Part shown: in pieces, positions 18,666-45,580 of the stretch
How the letters are laid out: each line of letters opens with the position of its first letter
Numbering within the stretch: position 1 is the stretch's first letter
Source of the DNA: a virus
DNA length: 64,000 nucleotides
Reading direction: 5' to 3' (one strand)
IMG/VR virus record: IMGVR_UViG_3300017613_002557
Span: 1-64,000 of that record
The notes under the pieces: generated by a model
Databases searched by the model: none
Seen by the model: only the letters and a program-made list of their open reading frames with translations
What the model was told of the DNA's origin: nothing
Position numbers and translations under genes: made by a program

Positions 18666-20203
18666 TTATTTTAGATATGCGTTACATAGCTCATAAAAAG
18701 GAATATGAGCGCAACCATCACGGCGACAACAACCCCCTTGGCATATTTTTTGGCATCAACAAAAAACTTAAGAGGGATGAAGAAACAATGGAGCATGGTG
18801 TGTGTGTGTTTTACTCACTCGATGCCATTACAGCACGGTTTCCCGATATAGATATTTCGGCACATGAGTTTGAATTGGACGAAGAATTAGAGACGATGAG
18901 CGCCGATGTTGAAAATGATGTCTATGATAGTGATGGGCTGCTCGATATATTCCATTCAAATGAGTATGTGTTTGGCGATATTGCCGCATCACTTATTGCC
19001 GCACATCCGGAAGAAAACCATGTTCTCGTAACCTCAAAAATAAGGGCGTTGCAACTCCTTTCTGACAAGGTATTCCTGTTTACGAATGGGAAGTTTTACG
19101 GTATAAACGACGCACACAACGAATATGGCATCACTGAGTTTCGTGATTTCCGCGTCATGACTGGGGATCGAAAATTTCTTCCTGGCATCAAAGGAATTGG
19201 GGAGAAAGGAGCCATCACATTGCTCCAACAGTACAAATCTCTTTATGGAATCTGTGCGAACGTTGCAAAACTTCCAGCCCGGTATGCGAAAATATTTGCG
19301 GATTTGATGCCAGCTACTTTTCATCAAATAATCTTTGACGGCAACTACCATATAGATGTGCCACTTGTCGAAGACACCACAACTGAGCTTGAAAAAACTG
19401 CTGAGATATTCAGGAATGCTATTGATCTTGGGGCTGGCGAGTCTGTGCTGTCCTTTGATCTTGAAACCACAGGGGCAGATATTGCGAAAGACAGAATCGT
19501 CCAACTACATGCCGTACTGATCTACCCAGACCGTACCGAGTCAATCGAGTATCTGATCAACCCAGACATTCCAATAGCCGCAAGAGCTACGGATGTACAC
19601 GGCATTACAGATGATATGGTGTCAGATGCTCCGACATTTCCAGATGTTGCACTTGAGGTTTTGGAGTTTTTTGAACGCGGCACCTATTGGATGGGATACA
19701 ATTCTAATTCGTTTGATATTCAGATCCTCATGAGAGAGCTTGATCAGGCAAAAAAATGGGGCGCATTCAACAACACAGAAAAAAACTACCAGGACGTTGT
19801 TGAGCAGGCAAAACTTATCGACGTAATCAGGCTAGAGCGGCATATCAACTCCCATAAACTCGAATGTGTCTACAAACGCTATTATGGTCGCCCGCTTGAT
19901 GATGCTCACGATGCTGGTGCAGACAATCTCGGAACAATCAAGGTGCTTGCGGCACAAGTAAAGTCGTCACAGCTTCTTTCAAGCGCACTCAGCGAGCTTT
20001 CTGAATTATCACGAGGTAATTCTGTGGATGTTGCCGGAAAGCTGGAACTAGATCCGTTTTCAAATGAAATCGTGTTTGCGTTTGGTCCCAAAAGAGGTGA
20101 GCCGGTCAAAGATTATCCAGGACTTGTCAAGTGGATGGAAGAAAAGGGGTTTCCACGTGATACGGTACGCATTGCAAAAGAATGTTGTAAGGGAAGAACG
20201 TAA
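18662..20203 (+). CDS. Fusion of 5'-nuclease (FEN/PIN) domain and DnaQ-type 3'-5' exonuclease, 513 aa
   Basis: Residues 1-230 resemble the 5'-3' exonuclease of PolI/T4 RNase H: an N-terminal MIILDMRY strand and the helix-hairpin-helix region FLPGIKGIGEKGAITLL. Residues ~260-440 are a DEDDh exonuclease: SFDLETTG (ExoI), GYNSNSFDIQIL (ExoII), DDAHDAGADN (ExoIII). This is PolI-like without the polymerase. In the 5'-nuclease part the usual GDxSDN metal motif reads GDRKFL, so at least one metal ligand appears lost and activity there may be reduced. Probable role: nuclease in replication, repair or host DNA degradation. Confidence 0.75.
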   Translation: MIILDMRYIAHKKEYERNHHGDNNPLGIFFGINKKLKRDEETMEHGVCVFYSLDAITARFPDIDISAHEFELDEELETMSADVENDVYDSDGLLDIFHSNEYVFGDIAASLIAAHPEENHVLVTSKIRALQLLSDKVFLFTNGKFYGINDAHNEYGITEFRDFRVMTGDRKFLPGIKGIGEKGAITLLQQYKSLYGICANVAKLPARYAKIFADLMPATFHQIIFDGNYHIDVPLVEDTTTELEKTAEIFRNAIDLGAGESVLSFDLETTGADIAKDRIVQLHAVLIYPDRTESIEYLINPDIPIAARATDVHGITDDMVSDAPTFPDVALEVLEFFERGTYWMGYNSNSFDIQILMRELDQAKKWGAFNNTEKNYQDVVEQAKLIDVIRLERHINSHKLECVYKRYYGRPLDDAHDAGADNLGTIKVLAAQVKSSQLLSSALSELSELSRGNSVDVAGKLELDPFSNEIVFAFGPKRGEPVKDYPGLVKWMEEKGFPRDTVRIAKECCKGRT

Positions 20204-20245
20204 TATTTTATCACAACTCACTTGTGACAATAATATTGTTATGCG
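20199..20245 (+). repeat. 47-nt hairpin element, copy 1 (directly before cassette island 1)
   Basis: Begins at the stop codon of the nuclease gene. Contains TCACAA-ctcac-TTGTGA (20211-20227) followed by the palindrome ACAATAATATTGT and the core GTTATGCG (20238-20245). Copy 2 (31214-31259) is about 81 percent identical and shows a compensatory stem change (CAA/TTG to CGA/TCG). Both copies end exactly where cassette-like DNA starts. Confidence 0.7.
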
Positions 20246-20397
20246 TCTACTCCTAAGCGTGTAAACGGTGACTCAGCCAGAGCATGAGCAGGACGAGTGA
20301 AGGCGATACCCGCAGAGCCACAACGCTGCAAGGAACTGTGCCGAAATCGACACCGTGACAAGCCGGGAGAGACCGGCCTTAGAAGTAGACGCATAAC
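20238..20397 (+). ncRNA. Structured RNA candidate closed by an 18-bp terminal stem
   Basis: GTTATGCGTCTAC (20238-20250) pairs perfectly with GTAGACGCATAAC (20385-20397), extended after a 2x2 internal loop by CTAAG/CTTAG. Inside are GCCGG-gagaga-CCGGC (20362-20377), ACGGTG/CACCGT, and CAGC/GCTG pairings. The segment has no reading frame of note. It could be a functional RNA, or the long terminal inverted repeat of a small mobile element. I could not match it to a known RNA class; some features resemble compact guide-like RNAs of IS605-type elements, but this is not established. Confidence 0.45.
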
Positions 20398-20406
20398 TGA
20401 AGTGAT

Positions 20407-20589
20407 ATGACAGAGAAAGAATATATTTCAGCCGCAAACCGAGTAAAGGTTTCAGCAGCATTAAAAATCTTATGTGATGTTTTGCCAGGTGACGAATACG
20501 GTATTTCTGATATAGAATTATCTGAAATCACAAGCAGGTTGGCGGTAGCGGAAGACAAGCTCTTTCAGTCTTATGAATGCACCGCATAA
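20407..20589 (+). CDS. Cassette-borne small protein, 60 aa
   Basis: Small helical protein (AANRVKVSAALKILCDVLPG). Its TAA stop lies inside the GCATAAC box that begins the attC site at 20584, the normal arrangement of an integron gene cassette. No RBS of note. Function unknown. Confidence 0.55.
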   Translation: MTEKEYISAANRVKVSAALKILCDVLPGDEYGISDIELSEITSRLAVAEDKLFQSYECTA

Positions 20590-20713
20590 CAATCCATTGC
20601 ACAATGAGCGAAACCGCAGTCTGTAGTTTCGACATTGTGCTTTCGCGAACGGCATGGCGGTTCATCCGGGTTCGTTGCCCGTTCTGTTTCGCCATGTGAA
20701 TGGGGCGTTATGA
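20584..20713 (+). other. attC-like recombination site 1
   Basis: Starts GCATAAC (20584-20590) and ends GTTATGA (20707-20713). The two ends pair as CATAACnnnCCATT..CACA with AATGTG..AATGGnnnGTTATG arms, leaving an unpaired G in CATTGCACA, as in the extrahelical bases of attC sites. Internal GCACAATG/CATTGTGC and GGCATGGCG/CGCCATG can also pair. Length 130 bp, within the attC range. No integron integrase gene is in the window. Confidence 0.7.
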
Positions 20714-20740
20714 GGCTTTAGTAAATACAAAGGAGTGGCC

Positions 20741-20890
20741 ATGAAGGAATATATATTTTCAGCAGAAGTTACGGTGTCAGCCATTACACGAGTTATGGCA
20801 AATAGTGAAGAAGAGGGACGTGAAATCGTTGAAGGTCGTAATGTTGAAATCGGCGGTTGGGGTTCTGGTGCTAGTGACAAAGAATCATGA
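20741..20890 (+). CDS. Cassette-borne small protein, 49 aa
   Basis: Follows attC site 1 with AAAGGAG 5-10 bases before the ATG. The sequence begins MKEYIFSAEVTVSAITRVMA and continues with a GREIVEGRNVEIGGWGSG segment, a pattern I associate with small uncharacterised proteins that carry a ferredoxin-like beta-alpha fold. Its position immediately after an attC fits a captured cassette. Function unknown. Confidence 0.55.
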   Translation: MKEYIFSAEVTVSAITRVMANSEEEGREIVEGRNVEIGGWGSGASDKES

Positions 20891-20951
20891 GTTATTAAAG
20901 ACGCTGATGGCGAAGCTCAACACATTCATTGTTGCTGAGAGGAGGAAGAGT

Positions 20952-21971
20952 TTGAGCGAGAATACTACCGAACTTCGTAATGAACACACAACAAGAAAAG
21001 AACTAGCAACTGAACTTATACGCCGATTCGGACCGTCCGGATGCGTCCACATGAACGGCGTACCACACCCAGTCATTTCAACTGGCTCACACGTGCTGGA
21101 TCAGATGACGGGGATTTACGGAATCCCGGGCGGAAGAATCACGGAGATTTCCGGTGATTTTTCAACCGGCAAGTCAACAATGGCACTTCAGATTATCCGA
21201 TCGGCGCAAGCATCCGGAGGTGCAACCGCGCTGATCAATGCTGAGTATTGTTTTAGTGAACGATACGCAGCACAACTAGGCGTCAACACAAAAGATCTGG
21301 TTTTGCTTGAACCGGAGACGTTTGAGCAGGCGTTTGACATGGCTTATAAACTTATCGCATCTGGTGGGCTTAGTGTGCTGGTTGTTGATTCATTTCCTGC
21401 TCTTCTGCCAAAAGAAGAACAGATTGGCGATATGGGAGATACTGTTAGTATTCATGGAACACTGGCGAGACAAGGCATCTGTAAAATTCTGGCAGCCGCA
21501 AGTAAGAACATGTGCGCTGTGGTGATCGTCAATCAACTCCGATATAGAAATATCGCCAGATGGAATGAAGAACCAAACTGGGTAGAAATTACGCCGGGAG
21601 GAAACGTACTCAAGTTCTTTACCTCTCTAAAAATTAGTCTTAAAACAATACACCAGTCAGATGAAAAACAAGTAATTAGAGCGGCTGTGACAAAAAACAA
21701 TCTCGGTCGGCCGACTGGCGTAGTGATGACGCAGCTAAATTACGGGCATGGCTTTACGAACGGCGATATATTTATTTGTGATCTATGCAGGCAGCACTAT
21801 CTGCCAAGAAGAACCAGGTCACTATTTTCAGGATACTGTAAATGTGGATCTTGCGGAGAATGGTCTGGCGGACATTCGTATTCAAAAGATTTTCTTTCAG
21901 AAACCAAATTAATATTGAGGGAACAGCTTGACATCCTCCCAGGGCTAAAGCACCTGGGATTCCCGATTTAA
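20952..21971 (+). CDS. RecA-like recombinase, atypical, 339 aa
   Basis: Strand-exchange ATPase core: STGSHVLDQMTG, Walker A GDFSTGKST, NAEYCF in place of the usual DAEHA, Walker B VLVVDSFPALLP, NQLR and TPGGNVLKFF. After the core comes a cysteine pair set (CDLC, CKCGSCG) not found in standard RecA. TTG 20952 is chosen because GGAGGAAGAG precedes it; upstream in-frame codons lack an SD. The last ~17 residues are encoded by a sequence that looks like the end of an IS200/IS605-type element, so the native C-terminus may have been replaced. Likely role: recombination of element DNA. Confidence 0.8.
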   Translation: MSENTTELRNEHTTRKELATELIRRFGPSGCVHMNGVPHPVISTGSHVLDQMTGIYGIPGGRITEISGDFSTGKSTMALQIIRSAQASGGATALINAEYCFSERYAAQLGVNTKDLVLLEPETFEQAFDMAYKLIASGGLSVLVVDSFPALLPKEEQIGDMGDTVSIHGTLARQGICKILAAASKNMCAVVIVNQLRYRNIARWNEEPNWVEITPGGNVLKFFTSLKISLKTIHQSDEKQVIRAAVTKNNLGRPTGVVMTQLNYGHGFTNGDIFICDLCRQHYLPRRTRSLFSGYCKCGSCGEWSGGHSYSKDFLSETKLILREQLDILPGLKHLGFPI

Positions 21972-22010
21972 CGGGTGGTTACTACGCAAGAGGCTGCTCC
22001 CGCAGAATCG
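21926..22010 (+). mobile_element. IS200/IS605-type end remnant
   Basis: CTTGACATCCTCCCAGGGC...CCTGGGATTCCC (hairpin CCCAGG/CCTGGG) followed by CGGGTGGTTACTACGCAAGAGG resembles, from memory, the subterminal hairpin at the 3' end of IS605-family elements downstream of tnpB. No transposase or TnpB gene is present. It overlaps the 3' end of the RecA-like gene. The remaining bases to 22180 hold no gene I can support. Confidence 0.4.
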
Positions 22011-22180
22011 AAATTCTTTGGAAGTCTGACGCCTTGACCGTAGATTGACGCGGTGTGTCTTCTTCTAATGGCAGGATGCTTTCACTGAGCCATCCAGTGC
22101 TCTGTTAAAATATGGGGCGCTGTGGTGCTGGAGTGGGTAATGTGTGCTTCGATACACACAGACACACAGCCATTGAAACT

Positions 22181-22774
22181 ATGCAAAATTTAATTCCGAT
22201 CACACTGGGCGAAATAATGGAGTTGTGTGATGATGACCCATATCAATTTGACACAACAGAAATGCTTGATGATCGTGGCTATAAGGTCATCACTACATAC
22301 GCAGAGTATATGAGGAATCCAGAGACACTGTGTAACAGCCTCGTCTATGTAACACCTGACACACTTACATGCCTTAGATGTCCAGAGGAACATCAGGCAG
22401 AAACACCTGACACTCACATTGTCCGTATTGAAACGACGTTTCTCGATGAGGATGAGGCTGTCGTCAAAGACAACAAACTTACCATAGCAGCAACAAAATA
22501 TCTTACGCTTGTGCCGATGATACCGTATATGCTTGCAACTGGTGTGTCCATTTCGTATGACGACGACTTGACCGGAATTGCAGTACCAGCAGAAACACTG
22601 GGATTAGAAGATATGGTTATTCTTCGGGCTGATATTCCGAACCATATTGGTCCGATTCGTTTGATCATGATGAATGTGTCAGACAAAACTGTTGTCATTC
22701 CTACAGACACACCGCTTGTGAATATTATTTTTTTGGCTACTTATGAGGTGAAATTTGAACAAGACCATCTTTAG
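22181..22774 (+). CDS. dUTPase/dCTP-deaminase-fold protein candidate, 197 aa
   Basis: The second half follows the trimeric dUTPase/Dcd pattern: GVSISYDDDLTGIAVPAETL, then IPNHIGPIRLIMMNVSD, then IPTDTPLVNIIFL, reminiscent of the family's 'Y-G-I-L-N ... G-D-I-A-Q' order. The strict motifs (PRSS, NSPGTID) are not met, so it may be a divergent or non-catalytic regulator. ATG 22181 is chosen; no strong RBS is seen. dUTPase-fold enzymes control dUTP and are frequent in phage nucleotide operons, which fits the neighbouring nucleases. Confidence 0.4.
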   Translation: MQNLIPITLGEIMELCDDDPYQFDTTEMLDDRGYKVITTYAEYMRNPETLCNSLVYVTPDTLTCLRCPEEHQAETPDTHIVRIETTFLDEDEAVVKDNKLTIAATKYLTLVPMIPYMLATGVSISYDDDLTGIAVPAETLGLEDMVILRADIPNHIGPIRLIMMNVSDKTVVIPTDTPLVNIIFLATYEVKFEQDHL

Positions 22775-23021
22775 TAAACGAAATTTTATATTTGGCGCAG
22801 TTCTCGGAATTGCCGTGATGTTTGGGGTAGACGTTGGGATTACCGGGTTTTTAATCGGGGCTGTTATGGCAGTCCTTTCGTTATTGGTCGTCAACATACT
22901 GGACATCATGAATTCAATGCTTGCCGTGATACGTGAGCATTCGCAACTACTGGAAGATTTTGCGAACATCATAAGGACGGCGTCTTCTGTTGACACCGAG
23001 GAGGAAAAACCTGATGATTAA
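22755..23021 (+). CDS. Small membrane protein, 88 aa
   Basis: TTG start at 22755 with GAGGTG just upstream, overlapping the end of the dUTPase-like gene. Two hydrophobic helices (IFGAVLGIAVMFGVDVGITG and LIGAVMAVLSLLVVNIL) separated by a short turn, then an amphipathic helix and an acidic tail EEEKPDD. Likely an inner-membrane protein; possible roles include holin-like or membrane-anchoring functions, neither proven. Confidence 0.55.
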   Translation: MNKTIFSKRNFIFGAVLGIAVMFGVDVGITGFLIGAVMAVLSLLVVNILDIMNSMLAVIREHSQLLEDFANIIRTASSVDTEEEKPDD

Positions 23022-23166
23022 GCCATTTTTCTCAACAAAGTTTGGACATATTTATCACGGCGATTGTAGGAAAATCGTGTGTGATCTGCTCTTTCCTGAA
23101 TTCGATCAGTACCACATCATCATGTTAGTTGAAAACATCACAGTATCAGGTCTATACGAGGAATAG
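23014..23166 (+). CDS. Short protein resembling a methyltransferase N-terminus, 50 aa
   Basis: GAGGA precedes ATG 23014, which overlaps the preceding stop. The protein begins with FGHIYHGDCRKIVCDL, similar to the opening of many DNA N4/N6-methyltransferases, but lacks the DPPY motif and all later motifs. It is either a tiny protein of its own or the stump of a deleted methyltransferase gene. Confidence 0.4.
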   Translation: MIKPFFSTKFGHIYHGDCRKIVCDLLFPEFDQYHIIMLVENITVSGLYEE

Positions 23167-23167
23167 A

Positions 23168-23701
23168 ATGGAGAATATTAAAGAACGTGTTCGAGAGATG
23201 TTGAAACAACGGATTGCCGTGTTGGATGTTGAAACGACCGGGCTGAATGCTCGTTATCATAAAATTGTGGAGATTTCGATCATTGGGAAAGGGAAAGTCT
23301 CTCTTCTGTCCACACTTGTCAACCCCTGTGTGCATATATCTGATGATGTTTCTAAGATTCATGGTATCCGTGATCATATGGTCAGGGATGCCCCTAAAAT
23401 GCACGATCTTCTTCCCAAAATACACGAAATCTTAAAGGAAATTGATATTGTATTCGCATACAACGTGCATTTTGACAAAGGGTTTATAGCTGCGGCTGGT
23501 GTGGATACTGATCTTTGCAAGTGGCAATGTGCGAAGAAACTGTTTCAAGAATATCGGCGTGTATTTATGTGGAGAAAGGGCAATATTTCTCTAGGTAATG
23601 CCTGTAGAGAAACAGGCATTACCTTAACAGTGGCACATCGCGCAGAGAATGATACGGCTGTAACCCTGGAACTTCTTGAGTACATGGCGCAAGACCATTA
23701 G
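23168..23701 (+). CDS. DnaQ-like 3'-5' exonuclease, 177 aa
   Basis: DEDDh exonuclease: AVLDVETTGLN (Exo I), NPCVHISDDVSKIHGI, FAYNVHFDKGFI (Exo II) and TVAHRAENDTAVTLELL (Exo III with H). Length matches the stand-alone proofreading/epsilon family. ATG 23168 lies two bases after the stop of the preceding small gene. It overlaps the 3' end of the convergent FtsK-like gene by four bases. Together with the fusion at 18662 the element carries two DnaQ-type exonucleases, but no polymerase is visible here. Confidence 0.8.
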   Translation: MENIKERVREMLKQRIAVLDVETTGLNARYHKIVEISIIGKGKVSLLSTLVNPCVHISDDVSKIHGIRDHMVRDAPKMHDLLPKIHEILKEIDIVFAYNVHFDKGFIAAAGVDTDLCKWQCAKKLFQEYRRVFMWRKGNISLGNACRETGITLTVAHRAENDTAVTLELLEYMAQDH

Positions 23702-25473
23702 TTTTTTCTGTGATCAGACAGAACAATCACATCGGCCCCCGTTTCAGGCGGTGCAATAAGGTCCAGCAGAGATTGTTTTGTCTTGTCTGATGCCGCCCCA
23801 CTGTTACGTAAACGGCTTACGGCACTCCTATTAATCTTAGCTCTCCTGGCTAATTCGTTGCCAGTGATACCACCAGTTTGAAGATACTGCTCAACAAGTT
23901 GCTGAAGTTCAGCTTCTTTGCCGAGTGAAACGTCTGGAACGGGCATAATAGCAGGCGTTTCATGTTGCAACGTTTCTTGCAACACTTCTGGAACGGACGT
24001 GCTGTTCCTACTGTCGTTTCGTGGCGTTTCAGTGTTGCATGATGCTGTTTTTGCAACGGCGTTATATGCGGTTTTTAACACTGTGTTGCACGTTAGTGTT
24101 GGTCCGTTTGCCTGTTTCAACGTTTCTGCGGTCGCCAAAATATCATGTTCTGTAATAAGCGGCATCGACACCTTAGACGGATCCATGTCACACGATGTTG
24201 CCAGTAACGCATCTCCAGGGTTTTTAAGTTCCTTAATAAGTTTTCTTTCGGATGCTGACGCATTTTCCATAAGAAAATCTGCCTGTGATGGTTTAGACTT
24301 ATGCACGAGATATGATTGGATGGACTGCCGGAAAGCCGCACTGTTTTTAAAAAATTTTGCCTGCCATTTATGGCATCCGAAAAAGGCAACAACATTGGCT
24401 TTTCGAGTCTCTTCAGTACAGCGTTCCGCGAACGGGACAACGTAGTCTGAAAATGAGGCTGACTTTCCAATCCTGTTCATCTCATCGAACAGAACAAACA
24501 CGAGTGGCTCAGATGGTATGAGCCCAGATAATCGCGCATCTAGAACCGCATTAAGGGCACGCATTAAATGCGGTAAGTCAAACGGATTGATAATCATCAA
24601 ACGCCCCGTTGCTTCCAGGGGTTTCAAGATGTAACCAAGACCTTCATGGTGATTTTTATGTGGATCAACTACGTAGCCAACACTATCAGGATATTGCAGG
24701 AGCAAGGACGATGCAATATACGCGAACGATAATGTTTTGCCACTTCCCTGCCATCCGGCTATAGCCATTGATTTAAGGTCATTAACACTACGATACTGTG
24801 GCTCATTCTTCGAGTATCCAAAACAGAGTGGGTGTCCAGGTGAAATAACTCCAGATTGCACAAGCTCTGAAAACGGTGGTGTGGCGTGTTCGATGTCAAT
24901 AACACCTTCTGTGATGGCCTCAAGATTGTCGTGTCTGATGTGATTCAATTCACGAATGCGCCCAGTGGATAAGGCACGAAGCTGCTGGACACTGTTTTCA
25001 GCTACGAGGCTATAAATTTCCATAGCTTTCTCCGGAGATTTCGCCTCAATCTTTGCGGCAATCGCCATGTCTTTTGCACTTCCTGGCGAGACGTTTTCCA
25101 GATCCTTATAGCGGACGGGAATTTCTGCTTCTGCAAACTTGAAGATGAACACAGAAAGCCGCCGACTGTAGGAAAACCCGATAGATAGGGCAACAATTGA
25201 TCCAGACACAAAAAGAAGGCTGTAGCACGTATATTTGATCGTTCGCCATATCGGAATACTGTGCTCCTTGTCTTCTATGACGGCGATTTCATAGCGGTAC
25301 TTTGCAGCATCGCGTTCTTCACGCAATTGATCGCTGATGGTAAGTTTTCCTGCCGCCCCAAGTGACGGAAAATCAATAGATTTGATTCCAGAAACTATGA
25401 GAACTATGAAGACAGTCAGAAAAAAACCAATAAAAGTGAATGCTCTTTTGTGAGATGTTTTGTCAGGTGTCAT
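23698..25473 (-). CDS. Membrane-anchored FtsK/TraD-like DNA-pumping ATPase with C-terminal helix-turn-helix, 591 aa
   Basis: Two N-terminal membrane helices (AFTFIGFFLTVFIVLIVSGI; SLLFVSGSIVALSIGFSY), then a FtsK/HerA-class ATPase: Walker A GWQGSGKTLSF near residue 240, Walker B VFVLFDEMNR near residue 335. The linker beyond residue 450 is low complexity. The last 70 residues hold a helix-turn-helix, TGNELARRAKINRSAVSRLR. The architecture suits conjugative coupling or segregation of a plasmid-like genome, with the HTH giving sequence-specific DNA recognition instead of an FtsK gamma domain. No relaxase gene is visible in the window. Confidence 0.7.
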   Translation of the reverse strand: MTPDKTSHKRAFTFIGFFLTVFIVLIVSGIKSIDFPSLGAAGKLTISDQLREERDAAKYRYEIAVIEDKEHSIPIWRTIKYTCYSLLFVSGSIVALSIGFSYSRRLSVFIFKFAEAEIPVRYKDLENVSPGSAKDMAIAAKIEAKSPEKAMEIYSLVAENSVQQLRALSTGRIRELNHIRHDNLEAITEGVIDIEHATPPFSELVQSGVISPGHPLCFGYSKNEPQYRSVNDLKSMAIAGWQGSGKTLSFAYIASSLLLQYPDSVGYVVDPHKNHHEGLGYILKPLEATGRLMIINPFDLPHLMRALNAVLDARLSGLIPSEPLVFVLFDEMNRIGKSASFSDYVVPFAERCTEETRKANVVAFFGCHKWQAKFFKNSAAFRQSIQSYLVHKSKPSQADFLMENASASERKLIKELKNPGDALLATSCDMDPSKVSMPLITEHDILATAETLKQANGPTLTCNTVLKTAYNAVAKTASCNTETPRNDSRNSTSVPEVLQETLQHETPAIMPVPDVSLGKEAELQQLVEQYLQTGGITGNELARRAKINRSAVSRLRNSGAASDKTKQSLLDLIAPPETGADVIVLSDHRKN

Positions 25474-25521
25474 AAATATTTTATGCTTTTACATAGTTGT
25501 TATAGGTGAATTATAAAGTTA

Positions 25522-25713
25522 TTATAATTCTGACACGTTTTTTGCTATATCACCTTGAAGATCAGCATACAATTTTATAACTGCTGCGCTGGCGATCTCT
25601 TTAAGCTTTTTCCCTTTAAAGTCTGTTGCAAACTGAAGTGCTTTAAGTTTTTCGTGTGCCTCTTCGGAAATTGAGATTCCTGGGCGTCTTTTTGCATCAT
25701 CATCTGTTGTCAT
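25522..25713 (-). CDS. Small ribbon-helix-helix-like protein, 63 aa
   Basis: Contains GISISEEAHEKLKALQF, typical of CopG/Arc-type proteins (beta strand then helix), followed by a second helix. ATG 25713 is preceded by GGAG. It would be a DNA-binding regulator, possibly of the FtsK-like gene immediately downstream and of its own divergent promoter region. Confidence 0.6.
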   Translation of the reverse strand: MTTDDDAKRRPGISISEEAHEKLKALQFATDFKGKKLKEIASAAVIKLYADLQGDIAKNVSEL

Positions 25714-25771
25714 ATTTTTCTCCATTTTGTAAACTGGTGAATAAAAAGCGAATAATATTTTAATAAAAACC

Positions 25772-25801
25772 ATAATAAACTAAAATTGCAAAGTCTGTCA
25801 A
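25772..25801 (-). promoter_or_regulatory. Promoter for the RHH/FtsK-like operon
   Basis: Minus strand: TTGACA (25796-25801), 18-bp spacer, TATTAT (25772-25777). Divergent from the plus promoter at 25831. Confidence 0.7.
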
Positions 25802-25830
25802 TAAAAAAATGAGTTTTTATAAAAAAACTC

Positions 25831-25859
25831 TTGACATCCTTTTGAAAATATGCAATGAT
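25831..25859 (+). promoter_or_regulatory. Promoter for the ParB/primase operon
   Basis: TTGACATCC (from 25831), then GAAAATATGCAATGAT; with a 17-bp spacer the -10 is AATGAT. It closely resembles the promoter at 1157. Confidence 0.65.
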
Positions 25860-25916
25860 CATATTATCGTCGAAAGTGTGTAATTGAGTAAATGCTATCC
25901 AAAAAAAGGAGCTATC

Positions 25917-26669
25917 ATGGATTCAGAATGTTTGCATGAAAACATTGGCGTTATACGTCAATGCGGAACACGTGTTCGAGGAGTTCCCTACATCTGCTGC
26001 GGCAAGTCAATTTATGGCCGCCCGATCAGTTACTTTATTAAATGCCCGCCAATAAAAATTCCCTTTAGCTTCAAAAAGCGCGGAATGCTGCTGTTTACAA
26101 AGAAAGATCCCAACACCGGCGAAGACATATATCACATCCTTGATCATGTTGGTATGCAATATCAGGTTGCTGATATGATCGAGGAGGTGAGGGCGCATGG
26201 GTTGTCTCGGAAAACCCATGAAAACTTTCCGTTTGATAAGCTGGATCCGTTCAAAAGCAAAATCTGGCTGTGTCACTCACAAGCGTGGATTCGTAGAATG
26301 ACAGACACATTTGAGACGTGGGAGTGTCAAAAAAAACTTGTGGCCCATATGCCGGATTACATGCGAGAAAATACTCCGGAACTGTGCTGTAGTGGCGGCT
26401 GGTATCAAAACATCCGCGATGCTGTGCCTTATGTGAAAACAGATGTTATCGATCTGTTCCCGCGTCCTGTTGAACGAACATTAGAAGGAGGACATACATA
26501 CATTGGATCAGCATCTCCAGAAGACTGTGAACTTGAGTATAACGAAGCGGTTTTTTTGGTGCTGCCGATTACCAATATTTCGGTCCCTGAATATGGGGCC
26601 GAATCAAGACGGGTTGTTCAAAAAATCAGAGAAAAGTCTGATATTCCAGTTCTCGAAACGGAGGCATAG
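25917..26669 (+). CDS. Hypothetical protein, 250 aa
   Basis: First gene of the operon leading to the ParB-like protein and primase. AAAAGGAGCT precedes ATG 25917. It has several cysteines (ICCGKSIYGRP, CHSQAWIRRM, WECQKKL, LCCSGGWYQ) and a basic N-terminal half; no known domain recognised. Confidence 0.6.
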   Translation: MDSECLHENIGVIRQCGTRVRGVPYICCGKSIYGRPISYFIKCPPIKIPFSFKKRGMLLFTKKDPNTGEDIYHILDHVGMQYQVADMIEEVRAHGLSRKTHENFPFDKLDPFKSKIWLCHSQAWIRRMTDTFETWECQKKLVAHMPDYMRENTPELCCSGGWYQNIRDAVPYVKTDVIDLFPRPVERTLEGGHTYIGSASPEDCELEYNEAVFLVLPITNISVPEYGAESRRVVQKIREKSDIPVLETEA

Positions 26670-26670
26670 T

Positions 26671-26901
26671 ATGTACCAAAACAACACGTTTAAAAGTGAC
26701 TGCATCTATAGCAGACATGCGTCTGTCAATAAATACGGCGAAATAGATCCAACCACTAGAAGAAAAGGATTTTTTATGGAGTGGCATCAATCAAACAACA
26801 GAGTTCGTGCAATTGTGGTTGACGCCGAAACGCAAGCACCTGTTATGGTTGGTTTACGTCAAATTAAGTTCGTGCCTGAAATTAATAACACAGAATCATG
26901 A
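26671..26901 (+). CDS. Hypothetical protein, 76 aa
   Basis: Starts two bases after the previous stop; the SD GGAGG lies inside that gene. Short protein with a FFMEWHQSNNRVRAIVVDAE segment, suggestive of a small beta-barrel (SH3/KOW-like), but not assignable. Confidence 0.5.
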   Translation: MYQNNTFKSDCIYSRHASVNKYGEIDPTTRRKGFFMEWHQSNNRVRAIVVDAETQAPVMVGLRQIKFVPEINNTES

Positions 26902-26944
26902 AAGTATGTATGTGTTGCATGCACATATATACGATCAATAGATT

Positions 26945-28267
26945 ATGCAAGAAACACCAAATCACAAAATACACGCATTGATTAAAGAAACGTTCGGGGA
27001 CCATCCGGTTTTTCTCAAAACCGGTGATTTTTACACCACCTATAACGCCGATGCACACACAGTAAGCGGCATTATTGGTGTCAAAATACAGAAAATTGAC
27101 AATGATACCGGGACATACGAGATGCTGGAAATTCCGCCAGACAGCAATGGACACTTCGACAGCATCAAACACTTGCGCCCGGTCATGGTCAATGATACAA
27201 AAGATCCATTCAATACTTTCCGCTATTACGGCGAAGACAAGCCAAAGCAAACTGAACTCTGGGAATTGCCTGATCAACCGATAATACGGCCAAAACGGCG
27301 AATACTTCTGCTCGACCAATTTGAGCCAAATGATAAATTCCATCGGTTGCCACCAACTGAAGATTTTGTCACAAGCATGCGATACGTTTTGATCAATGAC
27401 ATTGCGGTCGCTGAACCAGACGAAGATGGTGAATTTTTCAAAGTCGCTGCTGGTCAAGGGCGCATATGGTCTGCAAGAATCCTGAACGAACGACTCGGAG
27501 AAGAATCACCATATTGGGGCGGTATCAGATCAAATGTGTGGCCGAAAAACACACCACTTGATTGGATTCGACTCATTGAGAATAAAATCCGTGAAGAGAA
27601 CGTTCTAAGCGACTTATTCGCTTATAAGAACCTTCTTCAATCCGGCAGAACGGTTGCTGAAGTCTCCAGAATGGTCGGGAAAAAGCAGAGCGCTGTTAAA
27701 CGGACTCTGTCACTCGATGCGCTGGTTCCGGAATTGCGTCAACGGCTTATGACCGGCGATATGTCAGCAACTACGGCATTACATGTGGCCCGTAAAAAGT
27801 GGAGTGAGAAAACACAGCAGGCGTTTACTAAAGACTGCAAAACACGCAACGTATCGGACAGGATTATTGGGAAAGATGTGATGGAATTCCTGAAGGTTCA
27901 CGAGGGCAGGCAAGAGTTTTTTGATTCAATTAATGATGACACCAGGTCGCTTGAAGAACTCAAGGAAGAGAATATCAAAGAGACGACTAAACAGAATCCT
28001 GGTGAATACACGTGCCACGATTGTGGCGGTACTGGCTTGTACCCGACCGGAAAAGGTGTTGCTGGGGTAACATCTGCGATTGTCAAAAAAAACGCCTACA
28101 ACGCTGCTGATGAATCAGAAGAACCATGTTACCATGATGAGGTGACAATTGTCTTTTCATTTCAGTCGCCACTGAATTCAAAAGCTCCATTGAGTATGAC
28201 GATCTATGCTCAGGACGGGCAAAAGTACGCCAAAGAAAATTTTCACATTGACGCTGAGGTCAAGTAG
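26945..28267 (+). CDS. ParB-like DNA-binding protein, 440 aa
   Basis: A ParB-box-like segment (VAAGQGRIWSARILNERL) precedes a KorB/ParB helix-turn-helix region: SGRTVAEVSRMVGKKQSAVK and LVPELRQRLMTGDMSATTAL, whose order matches the ParB family. The first ~140 residues are extra, and a zinc-like CHDCGGTGLYP sits near residue 360. Stand-alone ParB-type proteins act in plasmid partition or as transcription regulators. No ParA gene is visible in the window. A palindrome-rich region at 51.2-51.4 kb is a candidate target. Confidence 0.6.
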   Translation: MQETPNHKIHALIKETFGDHPVFLKTGDFYTTYNADAHTVSGIIGVKIQKIDNDTGTYEMLEIPPDSNGHFDSIKHLRPVMVNDTKDPFNTFRYYGEDKPKQTELWELPDQPIIRPKRRILLLDQFEPNDKFHRLPPTEDFVTSMRYVLINDIAVAEPDEDGEFFKVAAGQGRIWSARILNERLGEESPYWGGIRSNVWPKNTPLDWIRLIENKIREENVLSDLFAYKNLLQSGRTVAEVSRMVGKKQSAVKRTLSLDALVPELRQRLMTGDMSATTALHVARKKWSEKTQQAFTKDCKTRNVSDRIIGKDVMEFLKVHEGRQEFFDSINDDTRSLEELKEENIKETTKQNPGEYTCHDCGGTGLYPTGKGVAGVTSAIVKKNAYNAADESEEPCYHDEVTIVFSFQSPLNSKAPLSMTIYAQDGQKYAKENFHIDAEVK

Positions 28268-28329
28268 GTTTAGAATTGGTCAAATACTGAGGCTGGGATC
28301 CCCGCCTCAACATAGCATTGGAGAATAGT

Positions 28330-28971
28330 ATGAAACCCTACATCAGACAAAAAGTAAAGAGGGCACGAGAGGTGTTTTTGAGTCGGTTCGACATCGAGCT
28401 TTCAATGAAGATGCACAATCAATTGGTCGGGCAGATTACGAATGGAAACGCTGAACTTGTGGCACATAAAGATAGAAACACCGCCCTGTATAGAATGACG
28501 ATACGTGGGCAAAAGATGGTCGTTGTCTATCATAAAAAGGATCAGTACATTGTGACGGCTCTGTTTGATAAAGAGCAAACCCATACATTAGCCTGGGAAT
28601 GCGGGTTTAAATGCGGACTTGCTCGTCAACAGACGAAAAACCCGCACCCAGAAGACACACAGGAATACTGGGAATTTGAACACGGCAGAATTGCCGGTAG
28701 AAACCGGAGTATTGAGAGCGCGAACATGCCGTCTGCAAAAGAGTACAAAGAAACTCATGGGAAAATCCCGTACGGCACAATTCTTTTGCTGTGTGACGAT
28801 ACCTACATTTTTTCTGAGCGTTCTAATGGGTTTGTAGTTACTGGCAGGACGTCAGGAAATAGTGACAAGGGCATCGACTTGCGTCAAAGAGGTGCGCGGG
28901 TTGCAGGAAGATGTTCAGACATAAATACGTGGCTTCGATATGGCTCAATTTTTCCGCTTGAGGAGGTATAG
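28330..28971 (+). CDS. Hypothetical protein, 213 aa
   Basis: Unknown basic protein; a central KDRNTALYRMTIRGQKMVVV strand region and a WECGFKCGLARQQ segment. A TGAGGC/GCCTCA hairpin lies just upstream (28288-28309). The stop is two bases before the primase TTG start, so the two are coupled. A primase- or DNA-associated role is only suggested by the neighbour. Confidence 0.5.
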   Translation: MKPYIRQKVKRAREVFLSRFDIELSMKMHNQLVGQITNGNAELVAHKDRNTALYRMTIRGQKMVVVYHKKDQYIVTALFDKEQTHTLAWECGFKCGLARQQTKNPHPEDTQEYWEFEHGRIAGRNRSIESANMPSAKEYKETHGKIPYGTILLLCDDTYIFSERSNGFVVTGRTSGNSDKGIDLRQRGARVAGRCSDINTWLRYGSIFPLEEV

Positions 28972-28972
28972 T

Positions 28973-30733
28973 TTGACTCACAAACGTATTCCTGATACGG
29001 TGCTTACTGAAATCAGACAACAAGCTGACATTGTCGAAGTGATTTCAGAATACGTCGCATTGACGAAGTCCGGGAAAAACTATAAGGGACTGTGCCCATT
29101 CCATCAGGAAAAAACGCCGTCCTTTGTGGTCAGTCCTGAAAAGAAAATTTTTCACTGTTATGGCTGCGGTGTCGGTGGAAATATCTTCTCTTTTCTTGTA
29201 AAGCATGAAAAGTGCTCGTTTCCTGAATCTGTCGGTATGTTGGCAAAACGCGCCGGTATCAACATGTCGGACAATACTGACACACAAGGCACACAAGGCA
29301 CACAGCAGATTGAACACAAAGATCAACTGTATCGGCTACACAAGGATGTTAGCGAGTATTTCACAACACAACTTGTCAGCAATCATAACGCTACTGAGCG
29401 CCTTCGGCAACGAGAGGTCTGCGCGGCAGCGGCACAGTCATTTTCACTAGGATATGCACTCCCGTCATGGGAGAATATACAGAAACACTTTGCCAGCAAA
29501 TACCCGATCGATCTGCTTCTTGAAAGCGGCTTGCTAATACAGCGTAAAAATGGCAATGGATACTATGACCGGTTTCGTGATCGGATCATAATTCCAATCA
29601 CAGATGATCGCGGCCGGGTGATCGCGTTTGGCGGGAGAGCAGTCAATGATGACCTAAAATATGTAAACTCGTCAGAATCACCGATCTTTCAGAAAAACCG
29701 GGTACTGTTTGGACTCAGTCATGCAAAACAAGCCATTCACCAGCATGGGTATGTCGTAATTGTCGAAGGTTATTTTGACATGATTGTGCCCTTTAGTCTG
29801 GGTGTGCAAAATATCGTTGCCACAATGGGAACGGCATTAACACAGCAGCACTTACGTGTACTTCAGCGGTATACCCGCAATGTTGTTCTGATGTTTGATG
29901 GCGATCACGCCGGAATCACTGCTGTGCAGCGTTCTCTCGATCTGTTTCTTGAGTCTGGGTTTACTGTGACGGCTGCTGTTCTACCAAAAGATATTGACCC
30001 AGATAAGATGATTCGAGAAATGGGAGTAGACCAATTTAAGCAATGTATCACACAGGCGCACCCACTGCTCGATTTTATCCGTGGTCATATCATGGCACAA
30101 TACGATCTTTCGCGTACCGATCAACGTGTCGCCTGCGCGAATAAAATCTTGGCGACAATTGTCAAAATTCAAAATATTCCAGAACGCAATACCCAGATCA
30201 GTAAAACTGCCGGGTTGCTCCAAATAACGGATGCGGACAAAGCTCTTCTGGATGAATTTCGTAAAGGGACACGTACCGGCAAGCCACGTGTGACAATTCC
30301 GGTAAAGACAGAGATCGCACTTCCTCCTCTGGAGCGCTTTCTAGTGAAAGCCCTGTTGAAAGACAAACAGCTTATTAAATATGTCAAACATGTTGGGCCA
30401 GCTACTTTTTCGCACACAATCACACGTAAAGTAATTGAGGTGTTGCTGTTTAACGAAACATCTGAGTGCGAGTCACGTGTTTTAGACCACTTTCACACAG
30501 CAGACTACCAATCATACCTCACAGAACTGTTTCTGCAAGTAGATGAGGTTGTGGACCCAGAGACGACAGTCAGAGATTGTTTGAACAGACTACAACAACA
30601 GACAGCCAGGAAACGTGCATGTAAGGACACATTGCGGCTGCAAGAACTACAAGAGCAAACAGACAGTGTCGAATTCGCTGCGCTTATCCAGCGCAAAAAT
30701 AAACAACTTCAGGAAAAGCGACATCAAAAATAG
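28973..30733 (+). CDS. dnaG: DNA primase DnaG
   Basis: 586 aa. The N-terminal zinc-binding domain is intact: CPFHQEKTPSF then HCYGCGVGGN. A TOPRIM catalytic core follows: VVIVEGYFDMI and LMFDGDHAG. A C-terminal helicase-interacting region matches normal DnaG length. TTG 28973 is chosen because AGGAGGTATAG precedes it directly and the upstream gene stops at 28971; the ATG at 28940 lacks an SD. The primase lays down primers for the DnaB helicase at 11291. Confidence 0.9.
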   Translation: MTHKRIPDTVLTEIRQQADIVEVISEYVALTKSGKNYKGLCPFHQEKTPSFVVSPEKKIFHCYGCGVGGNIFSFLVKHEKCSFPESVGMLAKRAGINMSDNTDTQGTQGTQQIEHKDQLYRLHKDVSEYFTTQLVSNHNATERLRQREVCAAAAQSFSLGYALPSWENIQKHFASKYPIDLLLESGLLIQRKNGNGYYDRFRDRIIIPITDDRGRVIAFGGRAVNDDLKYVNSSESPIFQKNRVLFGLSHAKQAIHQHGYVVIVEGYFDMIVPFSLGVQNIVATMGTALTQQHLRVLQRYTRNVVLMFDGDHAGITAVQRSLDLFLESGFTVTAAVLPKDIDPDKMIREMGVDQFKQCITQAHPLLDFIRGHIMAQYDLSRTDQRVACANKILATIVKIQNIPERNTQISKTAGLLQITDADKALLDEFRKGTRTGKPRVTIPVKTEIALPPLERFLVKALLKDKQLIKYVKHVGPATFSHTITRKVIEVLLFNETSECESRVLDHFHTADYQSYLTELFLQVDEVVDPETTVRDCLNRLQQQTARKRACKDTLRLQELQEQTDSVEFAALIQRKNKQLQEKRHQK

Positions 30734-30745
30734 GAGCGTACGCCG

Positions 30746-30943
30746 ATGTTATCAAACGAGCAAGTTACCAAAATTCAGGCTGCTATTCAGGCTATTGAGA
30801 CAGCAGAAGAAGTTAGTATTTGTCATACTTTTCTGACCGATGCAAAAATACTGTTACAAGAAGTGCTTGGCGAAGATCAGTCTGATCAATATCTTGACAT
30901 TGAGGCTAAAATATTCGATGAAAGCGATTTTGACGAGGGCTAA
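30746..30943 (+). CDS. Hypothetical acidic protein, 65 aa
   Basis: Short acidic helical protein (VLGEDQSDQYLDIEAKIFDE). An AGGAGCG precedes the ATG. Location after dnaG suggests cotranscription. Unknown function. Confidence 0.5.
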   Translation: MLSNEQVTKIQAAIQAIETAEEVSICHTFLTDAKILLQEVLGEDQSDQYLDIEAKIFDESDFDEG

Positions 30944-30947
30944 ATAT

Positions 30948-31184
30948 ATGACAAACGAACAAAAGTTACACCTTGCTCTTGCAACTTTACGAGGTATCGT
31001 AGACTATGAAAGATCGCTAAAAGACACTCCAGGATTCGATGGTGCTGTATGGGTAATGTCATATACAGGACTAAACATGTGTGGATATTTGGACAAAGAT
31101 TTTGGCGATCTTCATGCATACCCAACAGAGAAAGAGAACCCTCAAAGGTGGGTAGCAGAAAGACAACAATGTCATGCAAAATAG
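30948..31184 (+). CDS. Hypothetical protein, 78 aa
   Basis: Begins MTNEQKLHLALATLRGIVDY; starts four bases after the preceding stop. Small alpha/beta protein, no known family. It ends 30 bases before the second copy of the 47-nt hairpin element. Confidence 0.5.
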   Translation: MTNEQKLHLALATLRGIVDYERSLKDTPGFDGAVWVMSYTGLNMCGYLDKDFGDLHAYPTEKENPQRWVAERQQCHAK

Positions 31185-31213
31185 CACTGCCGGTATTTAA
31201 ATGGCACACAAGA

Positions 31214-31259
31214 CGTGATTTTTATCACGAGTAAGTCGTGACAATTATATTGTTATACG
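31214..31259 (+). repeat. 47-nt hairpin element, copy 2 (directly before cassette island 2)
   Basis: Contains CGTGAT/ATCACG (31214-31229), then TCACGA-gtaag-TCGTGA (31225-31241), ACAATTATATTGT and the core GTTATACG (31252-31259). Relative to copy 1 the stem changed A to G on one side and T to C on the other, preserving pairing. The cassette-like DNA with its own promoter begins at the core. Confidence 0.7.
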
Positions 31260-31377
31260 CCTTGCGGCAGCGCAGTTCCTTGAAAAAAAAGTTTCTCCTT
31301 GTTTTCCTGTTATACAGGCGAAATCAGACACGGGGCAAAAATGTTTCATTTATTTTGTTTAATCTACTTGACAAATT

Positions 31378-31406
31378 AAACAAAAAGACTTATTGTGTAT
31401 ATTACA
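31378..31406 (+). promoter_or_regulatory. Promoter inside cassette island 2
   Basis: TTGACA (31378-31383), 17-bp spacer, TATTGT (31401-31406), followed by an AAGGAG 5-10 bases before ATG 31453. Own promoters are unusual for ordinary cassettes but usual for toxin-antitoxin cassettes. Confidence 0.65.
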
Positions 31407-31452
31407 AGACGGAAACAAGGTAAAACAAACAATCAAAACAAGGAGAAAAATC

Positions 31453-31683
31453 ATGAGAGATTACACACAAGAAGAAGCTGACCGGAAAGAATTAGTTGCA
31501 ATGAATCAGGCTATTGAAGACGCCTCGCAAGGTATGAGCTACGAAGAAATGATGAAAGATCCAAAGGTTGTGGTATTAATCCAAAAACGTGATGACTTCA
31601 AAGAACAAATCGAGGCGATGGCACAGGAAGAACTCGACGAATACAAAAAAGAAAATCCTTTTTTCAGTGAGTTATTAGCATGA
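31453..31683 (+). CDS. Cassette gene pair, first protein, 76 aa (acidic)
   Basis: Acidic helical protein (TQEEADRKELVAMNQAIED; MAQEELDEYKKENPFF) behind its own promoter. The stop overlaps the next ATG by four bases. An acidic/basic overlapping pair with a private promoter in a cassette is reminiscent of toxin-antitoxin modules, but neither protein matches a family I can name. Confidence 0.55.
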   Translation: MRDYTQEEADRKELVAMNQAIEDASQGMSYEEMMKDPKVVVLIQKRDDFKEQIEAMAQEELDEYKKENPFFSELLA

Positions 31684-31889
31684 AGAAAGAAACGAGAGGT
31701 GGCGCAGGCAGGAATCAAGGCTTGCGCCCCGGAACCTATAAAAACGCACAGAAGCCGCCGGAATTTAAGCATAGTATCAAAAAGCAAGTAAGCTACACGC
31801 CGGAACAGTGGCAGCGTGTAGAGGCAAAAATGAAAGAATACGGCATAAAGAAATTTAGCGATTATGCCAGAATGTTAACTTTATCATAG
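31680..31889 (+). CDS. Cassette gene pair, second protein, 69 aa (basic)
   Basis: N-terminus GGAGRNQGLRPGTYKN resembles the Gly/Arg-rich starts of some MobC- or phage-type small DNA-binding proteins; the C-terminal YTPEQWQRVEAKMKEYGIKK followed by FSDYARMLTLS looks like a ribbon-helix-helix. It may bind DNA and regulate the pair. Its stop lies next to attC site 2. Confidence 0.55.
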   Translation: MKKETRGGAGRNQGLRPGTYKNAQKPPEFKHSIKKQVSYTPEQWQRVEAKMKEYGIKKFSDYARMLTLS

Positions 31890-31893
31890 CGGC

Positions 31894-31955
31894 GCATAAC
31901 AAAAAATTGTACGCGACCGGAAAAAGCGCCCGGCGCGTAAATTTCGCCGTTATGC
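31894..31955 (+). other. attC-like recombination site 2
   Basis: GCATAAC (31894-31900) to GTTATGC (31949-31955), 62 bp. The central arms TTGTACGCGACCGG and CCGGCGCGTAAATTT pair except for one bulged A, the attC hallmark. Outer boxes are perfectly complementary. Cleanest of the three sites. Confidence 0.8.
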
Positions 31956-31977
31956 AACTTATGTTTGGAGGTAACGC

Positions 31978-32718
31978 ATGAAAATAGAACAACATATTTT
32001 AGATATAATCGAAGAAGGCAAAACAGACGGGAATTTATTTTTTCTGCCAAATCGTCAGCTTGACCGCAAGGTTTACCAGGATGTAAACAAGGTTCTTGGG
32101 TGTCTCGGAGGAAAGTGGAATCGGAAATTTAAGGCCCATGTGTTTGAGTCTGATATTTCAGGCGCTATTGATGATGTACTTTTAACCGGCGAAGTTATTA
32201 GCAAGAAACAAGAGTTTCAGTTTTTTGAAACGCCGGAACCTATTGTCAACCAACTTATCGAATTAGCAGAAATTGAAGTAGGGCATAAATGTCTTGAACC
32301 TTCTGCCGGTCATGGGAATATCGCTGAAGCATTGCGCGAAATTGTTGGCGATAACGTGACGTGTGTTGAAATGATGCCGGAAAATGTTGCTGTCCTTGTA
32401 AGCAAAGGTTTTCAGGTGCATGAAGGTGACTTTTTGCAGTATCTTTCCGGCGTAGGTTATGACAGAATTATCATGAATCCTCCATTCACACGACAACAGG
32501 ACATCGCCCATGTCGAAAAAGCTTTAATGCATCTGAAGGATGGCAGTATTCTTGTTTCTGTGATGTCTGTCGGCGTAACGTTTCGACATGACAAAAAGAC
32601 AACTGACTTTTGGTATAAACTTAGTGGATACGATTATGAGATTATTGAGTTGCCAATAGGAGCGTTTAAGGTTTCCGGTACTATGGTCAATGCAATAATC
32701 TTGAAGGTCGTTGCATAA
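31978..32718 (+). CDS. Cassette-borne N6-adenine DNA methyltransferase-like protein, 246 aa
   Basis: SAM-dependent methyltransferase fold: motif I LEPSAGHGNIAEAL, an acidic residue after strand 2 (CVEMMPENV), and catalytic NPPF (IMNPPFTRQQDI) typical of N6-adenine or related DNA methyltransferases. No separate target-recognition domain is obvious; the first ~80 residues are extra. GGAGGTAAC precedes the ATG. It is a complete cassette: attC site 2 before it and attC site 3 overlapping its stop codon. Could be a protection or epigenetic enzyme. Confidence 0.7.
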   Translation: MKIEQHILDIIEEGKTDGNLFFLPNRQLDRKVYQDVNKVLGCLGGKWNRKFKAHVFESDISGAIDDVLLTGEVISKKQEFQFFETPEPIVNQLIELAEIEVGHKCLEPSAGHGNIAEALREIVGDNVTCVEMMPENVAVLVSKGFQVHEGDFLQYLSGVGYDRIIMNPPFTRQQDIAHVEKALMHLKDGSILVSVMSVGVTFRHDKKTTDFWYKLSGYDYEIIELPIGAFKVSGTMVNAIILKVVA

Positions 32719-32821
32719 CAACCGCTTGCAGCCAGATTTGACCGCGTGGGTTCAAATCTGGCTGCTAAATTACAAGCTTCGGTGGCGCGTGGGTTCAAAC
32801 TGCTGAAGCGGAACGTTAGTA
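32713..32821 (+). other. attC-like recombination site 3
   Basis: GCATAAC (32713-32719, containing the TAA of the methyltransferase gene) to GTTAGTA (32815-32821). CCGCTTGCAGC pairs with GCTGAAGCGG leaving one unpaired G. A second perfect hairpin, GCAGCCAGATTTGA/TTCAAATCTGGCTGC, lies inside. Length 109 bp. Confidence 0.75.
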
Positions 32822-32843
32822 GTGCTTGAGAGGGATAATAATT

Positions 32844-45211: not shown

Positions 45212-45580
45212 ATGGAAACACGCCATTTTAACGTATATCTTGGGACATCTCATAAAGACGACATTACCAGCGCTATACACACAATTGCCGATCACTGGGC
45301 AATGCTCGGAATGAAAAAAATCAGACTCTTTCCATGCTGTCAGCGAATGCGGCTCTTTCTGGTAATTACTGCGAACGGATGGGGTCGCCTGGATATTCTG
45401 GATCTTGAGAATATCTTTACTACCGGGTGCATGCGGCAAAAAAGACAATATACGTATCCGAATCCGCAAAAACGCTATACCGGAGAGTGGTACACATACA
45501 CCACACCACAAACACTGCGACATACCACCTGCTTTGAGGATACACCACGACATAAAAGTAAAGCAATATGGAGCAAATAA
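45212..45580 (+). CDS. Hypothetical protein, 122 aa
   Basis: Basic protein with a FRMRLFLVITANGWGRLDI-like core. Overlaps the response-regulator gene start by 13 bases. Unknown function. Confidence 0.45.
   Translation: METRHFNVYLGTSHKDDITSAIHTIADHWAMLGMKKIRLFPCCQRMRLFLVITANGWGRLDILDLENIFTTGCMRQKRQYTYPNPQKRYTGEWYTYTTPQTLRHTTCFEDTPRHKSKAIWSK

Follow-up and report, generated by a model that had tools for sequence, protein, structure and literature searches.

How do cassettes enter arrays that have no integrase of their own? Integrase-less cassette arrays have been reported on phages, and phage attC sites are functional with IntI1 (Qi et al. 2023, PMC9892861), but how such arrays are filled is a puzzle to which a phage-borne attI would offer a direct route, with the host IntI acting during infection. 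Such a site would make phages carriers of cassettes between bacterial integrons. The DNA analyzed here (the window, bases 1-64000 of a linear IMG/VR virus record of 90,004 bases) encodes phage-type proteins, including a terminase, DnaB, DnaG, a UvsX/RecA-like protein, and a DNA polymerase exonuclease subunit, and it carries two cassette islands. Profiles for tyrosine recombinases (PF00589) and for IntI (TIGR02249) gave no match in the 90-kb record, whose open ends leave room for an integrase beyond them. A first-pass annotation had reported a repeated hairpin element directly before both islands and proposed it as an attI-like landing site for an external integrase. Our results bear out the repeat and strongly suggest that both elements represent integron attI sites on a phage in which no integron integrase was found, probably loaded through the IntI of the host.

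Cassette crossovers and the element to their left

The 5' end of a cassette that was once circular must complement the R'' side of its own attC. The cassette starts in both islands do so (Table 1). The crossovers are thereby placed at 20238|20239 and 31252|31253 (the bar marks the cut), and TTATRCG is assigned to the cassettes, outside the element. Island 1 is one cassette with one attC, and island 2 comprises two clear cassettes and, after them, ORFs that lack a recognizable attC; the latter therefore counts as a CALIN, having at least two attC and no integrase, whereas island 1 alone, with its single attC, would not. In bottom-strand folds of 20582-20716, 31892-31957, and 32711-32824, the attC structures gave z scores of -3.5 to -3.7 against shuffles, and an extra base in L'' is present in each of the three folded attC. 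The second ORF of cassette 2.1 has a weak NikA/CopG-like likeness (Pfam NikA-like, E 0.002, below cutoff).

Table 1. Coordinates of the cassettes, their attC sites, and the attI-like sites in the window
Feature	Position	Strand	Remarks
attI-like site, copy 1	20206..20238	+	cut after G20238; top match of the bacterial attI covariance model, 20.4 bits
inverted repeat, copy 1	20211..20227	+	TCACAA (20211-20216), loop CTCAC, TTGTGA (20222-20227)
AT-rich spacer, copy 1	20228..20238	+	CAATAATATTG; AATAATATTG|TTAT is the same as in bacterial attI L156
cassette 1	20239..20707	+	60-aa ORF of unknown function at 20407-20589; start GTTATGCG, 8/8 paired with R''
attC of cassette 1	20584..20713	+	bottom-strand fold with R''/R' and L''/L' pairing and extrahelical base; z -3.7
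attI-like site, copy 2	31220..31252	+	cut after G31252; homologue of copy 1; third match of the attI model in the window, 14.2 bits
inverted repeat, copy 2	31225..31241	+	TCACGA (31225-31230), loop GTAAG, TCGTGA (31236-31241)
cassette 2.1	31253..31949	+	small ORFs; start GTTATACGCC pairs 9/10 with R''
attC of cassette 2.1	31894..31955	+	fold with R and L arms, extrahelical G
cassette 2.2	31950..32815	+	DNA methyltransferase ORF 31978-32718 (MTase family matches); start GTTATGCAAC pairs 10/10 with R''
attC of cassette 2.2	32713..32821	+	long inverted repeat; z -3.5

The repeat preceding the islands is ungapped and identical at 35 of 43 positions (20206-20248 and 31220-31262; E 9e-7, or ~1e-6, when the 90-kb record was searched with 231 nt), with 27 of the 33 positions left of the cut shared. 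Its extent had originally been drawn as 20199-20245 and 31214-31259, but the first bases of each (20199-20205 and 31214-31219) are mostly unconserved and in copy 1 overlap a stop codon. Similarly, of the GTTATRCG taken as the element's end only the first G belongs to it: on the phage side of the cut the element reads TTTTATCACRANNNNNTYGTGACAATWATATTG, its own DNA stopping at the G of G|TT, and the remainder belongs to the first cassette as its 5' end. Copy 1 begins at the stop codon of a 513-aa ORF, and copy 2 begins ~30 nt past the preceding ORF. The full-record search proposed at that stage returned these two copies only, both at cassette junctions; the next-best place for copy 1 reached 27/43, with random stretches reaching 24-31/43, and the pattern TCACNA-N5-TNGTGA with a full stem also occurs at exactly these two sites. 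The stem changes from TCACAA-CTCAC-TTGTGA in copy 1 to TCACGA-GTAAG-TCGTGA in copy 2, so that the CAA/TTG to CGA/TCG replacement noticed at the outset does keep the pairing: 10 of 12 arm bases are retained, the two changed bases are partners, and three of five loop bases differ. We estimate the chance of two arm changes being partners and still pairing at ~3%, and as evidence of selection the double change taken alone is therefore no more than suggestive.

Beyond this record, exact-pattern scans of IMG/VR and GTDB genomes gave chance matches only, within coding DNA and without the hairpin, the exact core not being found in 84,980 species genomes; Rfam gave no match, and island 1 had no BLASTN match among phages and plasmids. 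An intrinsic terminator, with a GC-rich stem and a T run, was rejected, as only 2-3 of the stem pairs are GC and CAATWATATTG comes next; a loose terminator scan was passed by copy 2 only. If a preceding cassette had been lost, its degenerate attC would also present a hairpin ending in GTTATRC, but no R'' box at the left end complements the R box, and in the folds GTTAT either is unpaired, in copy 1, or pairs elsewhere, unlike in the three real attC. An attC remnant was rejected for its missing R''/R' complementary ends, and we regard this origin as very improbable.

The inverted repeat of bacterial attI sites

An earlier plain pattern comparison with mixed IntI loci barely exceeded shuffles, but its best matches lay at true attI sites, and a comparison within families was therefore undertaken. 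TIGR02249 was searched in 399 genomes from the phylum of a Pseudomonadales MAG, 251 from the phylum of an Anaerolineae MAG, and 150 from one integron-rich family, one IntI of which is 74-78% identical to Pseudoalteromonas integron integrases. At 48 loci in these Pseudoalteromonas-like genomes, a junction of the form ATTAAATTG|TTA precedes intI by ~235 nt. To the left of this cut, an inverted repeat varies in arm sequence between bacteria and keeps its complementarity, for example CGACCC-GTT-GGGTCG-ATATTAAATTG|TTATATGC in L125, GCGCAA-A-TTGCGC-ACTATTAAATTG|TTATATAC in L060, and ACGGAAC-A-GTTCCGT-CTATTAAACTG|TTATGTTG in L111. Across all possible centers, complementarity in 45 sites peaks sharply and only once, 19 nt left of the cut (-19; 0.54 compared with 0.26 +/- 0.06). 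A six-pair stem at this position has a mean of 3.58 of 6 pairs in the same 45 sites, as against 2.21 +/- 0.17 after left halves were redistributed over the sites, with a maximum of 2.89 in 2000 rounds. For a covariance model, 28 of the 45 sites were picked, a choice of which the 45-site pairing test is free; in these 28 chosen sites, covariation was 0.60 compared with 0.21 in shuffles (0/500), sliding by one column destroyed the signal, 78% of cells paired (53% shuffled), and cells with a change on both sides numbered 42 (19 shuffled). The repeat centered 19 nt left of the crossover can be seen upstream of intI in L060, L102, L111, L114, L124, L125, L128, L130, L133, L146, L149, and L158. Similar inverted repeats are found by reading, without statistics, in other integrons whose junctions were set by cassette complementarity alone, such as ACCCCC-GCT-GGGGGT-CTACTGGTAG|TTAGG in L052 and GCGGGTC-GACCCGC-CCAATAAGCG|TTATGCG in L101.

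Usually described by their L and R boxes only, attI sites thus share an inverted repeat at a fixed place that is variable in sequence and conserved in pairing, and the compensatory change between the two phage copies is a general habit of attI sites. We found no published description of an attI inverted repeat in the part of the integron literature searched. The initial statement that no described element has this shape does not stand in so far as attI sites beside intI have it, though no paper describing their inverted repeat was found.

Fit of the phage sites to attI and competing readings

The covariance model (R1) was built from the 28 bacterial attI sites with no phage sequence, and its best match in the phage was copy 1, with 20.4 bits (a modest E of 0.09 over 90 kb, ~0.07 over the 64-kb window), as compared with 18-39 bits for held-out bacterial attI loci and a maximum of 16.2 bits on 374 kb of unrelated phage DNA. 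With filters off, copy 2 ranked third in the 64-kb window (14.2 bits, E ~1.5), which alone is not significant, behind a second-ranked local match without a stem; it is supported by being homologous to copy 1 and by lying at a cassette junction. A pairing-free model of the same 28-site alignment found neither copy, which indicates that the stem carries part of the signal. In addition, a matrix made from the 13 nt that precede the cut in bacteria ranked the phage cuts 5 and 11 among 15,347 N|TT places. By these matches and ranks, the L box region and spacer resemble those of known attI sites. Both sites lie directly left of a first cassette with the crossover at G|TT, and their R boxes, GTTATGC and GTTATAC, were counted as GTTRRRY; position 5 is a T and not a purine, which is also the case in many bacterial junctions of the set (GTTATG, GTTATA). 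No intI gene adjoins either site (TIGR02249 and PF00589, 90-kb record), and we therefore speak of orphan attI-like sites and not of an integron. Position, cut site, spacer, covarying inverted repeat, and the lack of an integrase in the record all support the proposed landing site.

The closest counterparts are the Pseudoalteromonas-type attI sites (L060, L114, L125, L128, L156, and others), which likewise have a covarying inverted repeat with its right arm ending 11-12 nt before the cut (11 nt in copy 1, as in many bacterial attI sites), an AT-rich spacer ending in ATTG or CTG, the cut G|TTAT, and the first cassette immediately after it. The phage copies differ in having no adjoining intI, an arm sequence of their own (no bacterial attI with these arms occurred in 299 genomes of the integron-rich family, allowing up to 3 mismatches), two sites per genome, and a loop of 5 nt where bacterial attI usually have 3.

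A different view is that the element is a repeated phage control element, either a promoter with operator or a terminator, which IntI used twice as an attG-like secondary site and whose inverted repeat serves a phage regulator. Copy 2 contains promoter-like hexamers (TTATCA-18-TATATT) with a near match in copy 1, but such matches are no commoner than in shuffles. A ribosome-binding-like sequence and an ORF follow within ~30 nt after both islands, which would place an empty site just upstream of a gene, and IntI is known to insert at sites with little beyond GTT (PMC10127599). Against this, the element has two copies only in 90 kb, both are loaded with cassettes and cut at the same base, and they fit a model made from bacterial attI sites. 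The secondary target offered as an alternative in the first-pass annotation is the less likely choice, and we consider the control-element origin improbable. The stable remnant suggested there, in the sense of former attI sites left inert from an integron that the phage lineage took in at some earlier time, would agree with the lack of an integrase in the record and with the inserts past cassette 2.2 that have no clear attC. It accords less well with an inverted repeat whose pairing survived a double change and with attC arrays that both look intact, with three folded attC, and we hold it to be unlikely.

Under the favored attI reading, each site would be a double-stranded target made up of the inverted repeat, with its right arm at the L box place, an AT-rich spacer of 11 nt, and the G|TT crossover. 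Since no integrase was found in 90 kb, cassettes would enter via the host IntI acting in trans, which would bind the phage attI as double-stranded DNA and insert a circular cassette at G|TT through its folded attC (attI x attC recombination), so that inverted repeat and spacer stay to the left of the insertion point and cassette DNA starting with TTATRCG lies to its right. Because the right arm lies at about the place of the attI1 L box, the arms may offer the integrase two oppositely oriented contacts or may form a hairpin. Both sites are presumably still active, and in the phage lineage either a single site would have been duplicated or two related sites taken up. The searches turned up no related phage whose site is empty, and use and duplication are accordingly not seen directly. 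Four phage proteins led to no usable relative apart from the record IMGVR_UViG_3300017527_000961, which is 100% identical over 17.4 kb and ends at window position 32752, so that an empty site could not show there; this end falls inside the attC of cassette 2.2 and perhaps reflects variability of the array or a break in the assembly at the palindrome.

To our knowledge, the presence on one phage of two loaded attI sites without an integrase is new, integrase-less phage arrays being already known; we found no report of a phage with a pair of orphan attI sites in the part of the integron literature searched. A more far-reaching proposal, in which we place less than even confidence, is that the phage lineage keeps integrase-less attI docking stations for loading or swapping cassettes through the host IntI at each infection of an integron-bearing host, and that the covarying inverted repeat is a general, unrecognized recognition element of attI. 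If the docking reading is true, the swappable cargo here would be a DNA methyltransferase and small unknown genes.

Other cassette systems and further features of the record

In class 1 integrons, attI1 has the direct repeats DR1 and DR2 upstream, which we do not know to be general outside this class, and none of this type was apparent on reading the phage flank. Like the phage copies, attI1 (L100) carries to the left of its cut an inverted repeat, AGGGC-AGTC-GCCCT-AAAACAAAG|TT, which overlaps the L box, whereas its spacer and arms differ from theirs. The L box of attI1 is CCCTAAA (PMC12901181). The attG or secondary sites share with the phage sites the insertion of cassettes at G|TT outside an integron, but are described (PMC12901181, citing Loot 2024) as divergent in sequence from classical att sites, whereas the phage pair are alike and attI-like.

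For the CALINs of Qi et al. 2023 (PMC9892861) no attI was reported, whereas here two arrays stand behind two copies of one attI-like site. Among them, the array of Tetrasphaera phage TJE1 was described as adjoining a palindrome that is predicted to be a terminator and has inverted GTTRRRY motifs (PMC9892861). We find that this array begins directly right of the palindrome GTTAGACCGATCGGTCCAAC (L184, 49197-49219 and 1-10), annotated as a terminator, at the junction ...GATCGGTCCAACCATG|TTGGATG, and that the cassette start matches its own R'' at 8/8. An integrase-less array starting just right of a palindrome, at GTTAGACCGATCGGTCCAACCATG|TTGGATG, is the layout of the islands studied here, and TJE1 may thus be a second case of a phage attI-like site. 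The attI-model search, in a form that could not be decisive for TJE1, gave no match there and no clear match in Pseudoalteromonas phage H101, whose array itself was not located.

Several other features of the window were noted. At the start of cassette 1, 20238-20397 forms a 160-nt hairpin with 20-nt arms (GTTATGCGTCTACTCCTAAG and CTTAGAAGTAGACGCATAAC; RNA fold z -5.4) that is possibly a structured RNA; it had no Rfam match even at E 5. The 10-mer CAAGGAACTG occurs twice only in 90 kb, at window positions 20329 and 31273 and in opposite orientation, both times within the first 100 nt of an island's first cassette. Downstream of the recA/uvsX-like gene, ~21930-22050 presumably resembles the end of an IS200/IS605-type element or an omega RNA. 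An ORF at 45568-46533 combines a response-regulator receiver with an HD (HD_5) domain, which is unusual in a phage, and a 702-aa ORF at 48684-50792 contains internal repeats at ~49309-49770 (self-matches of 79-83%).
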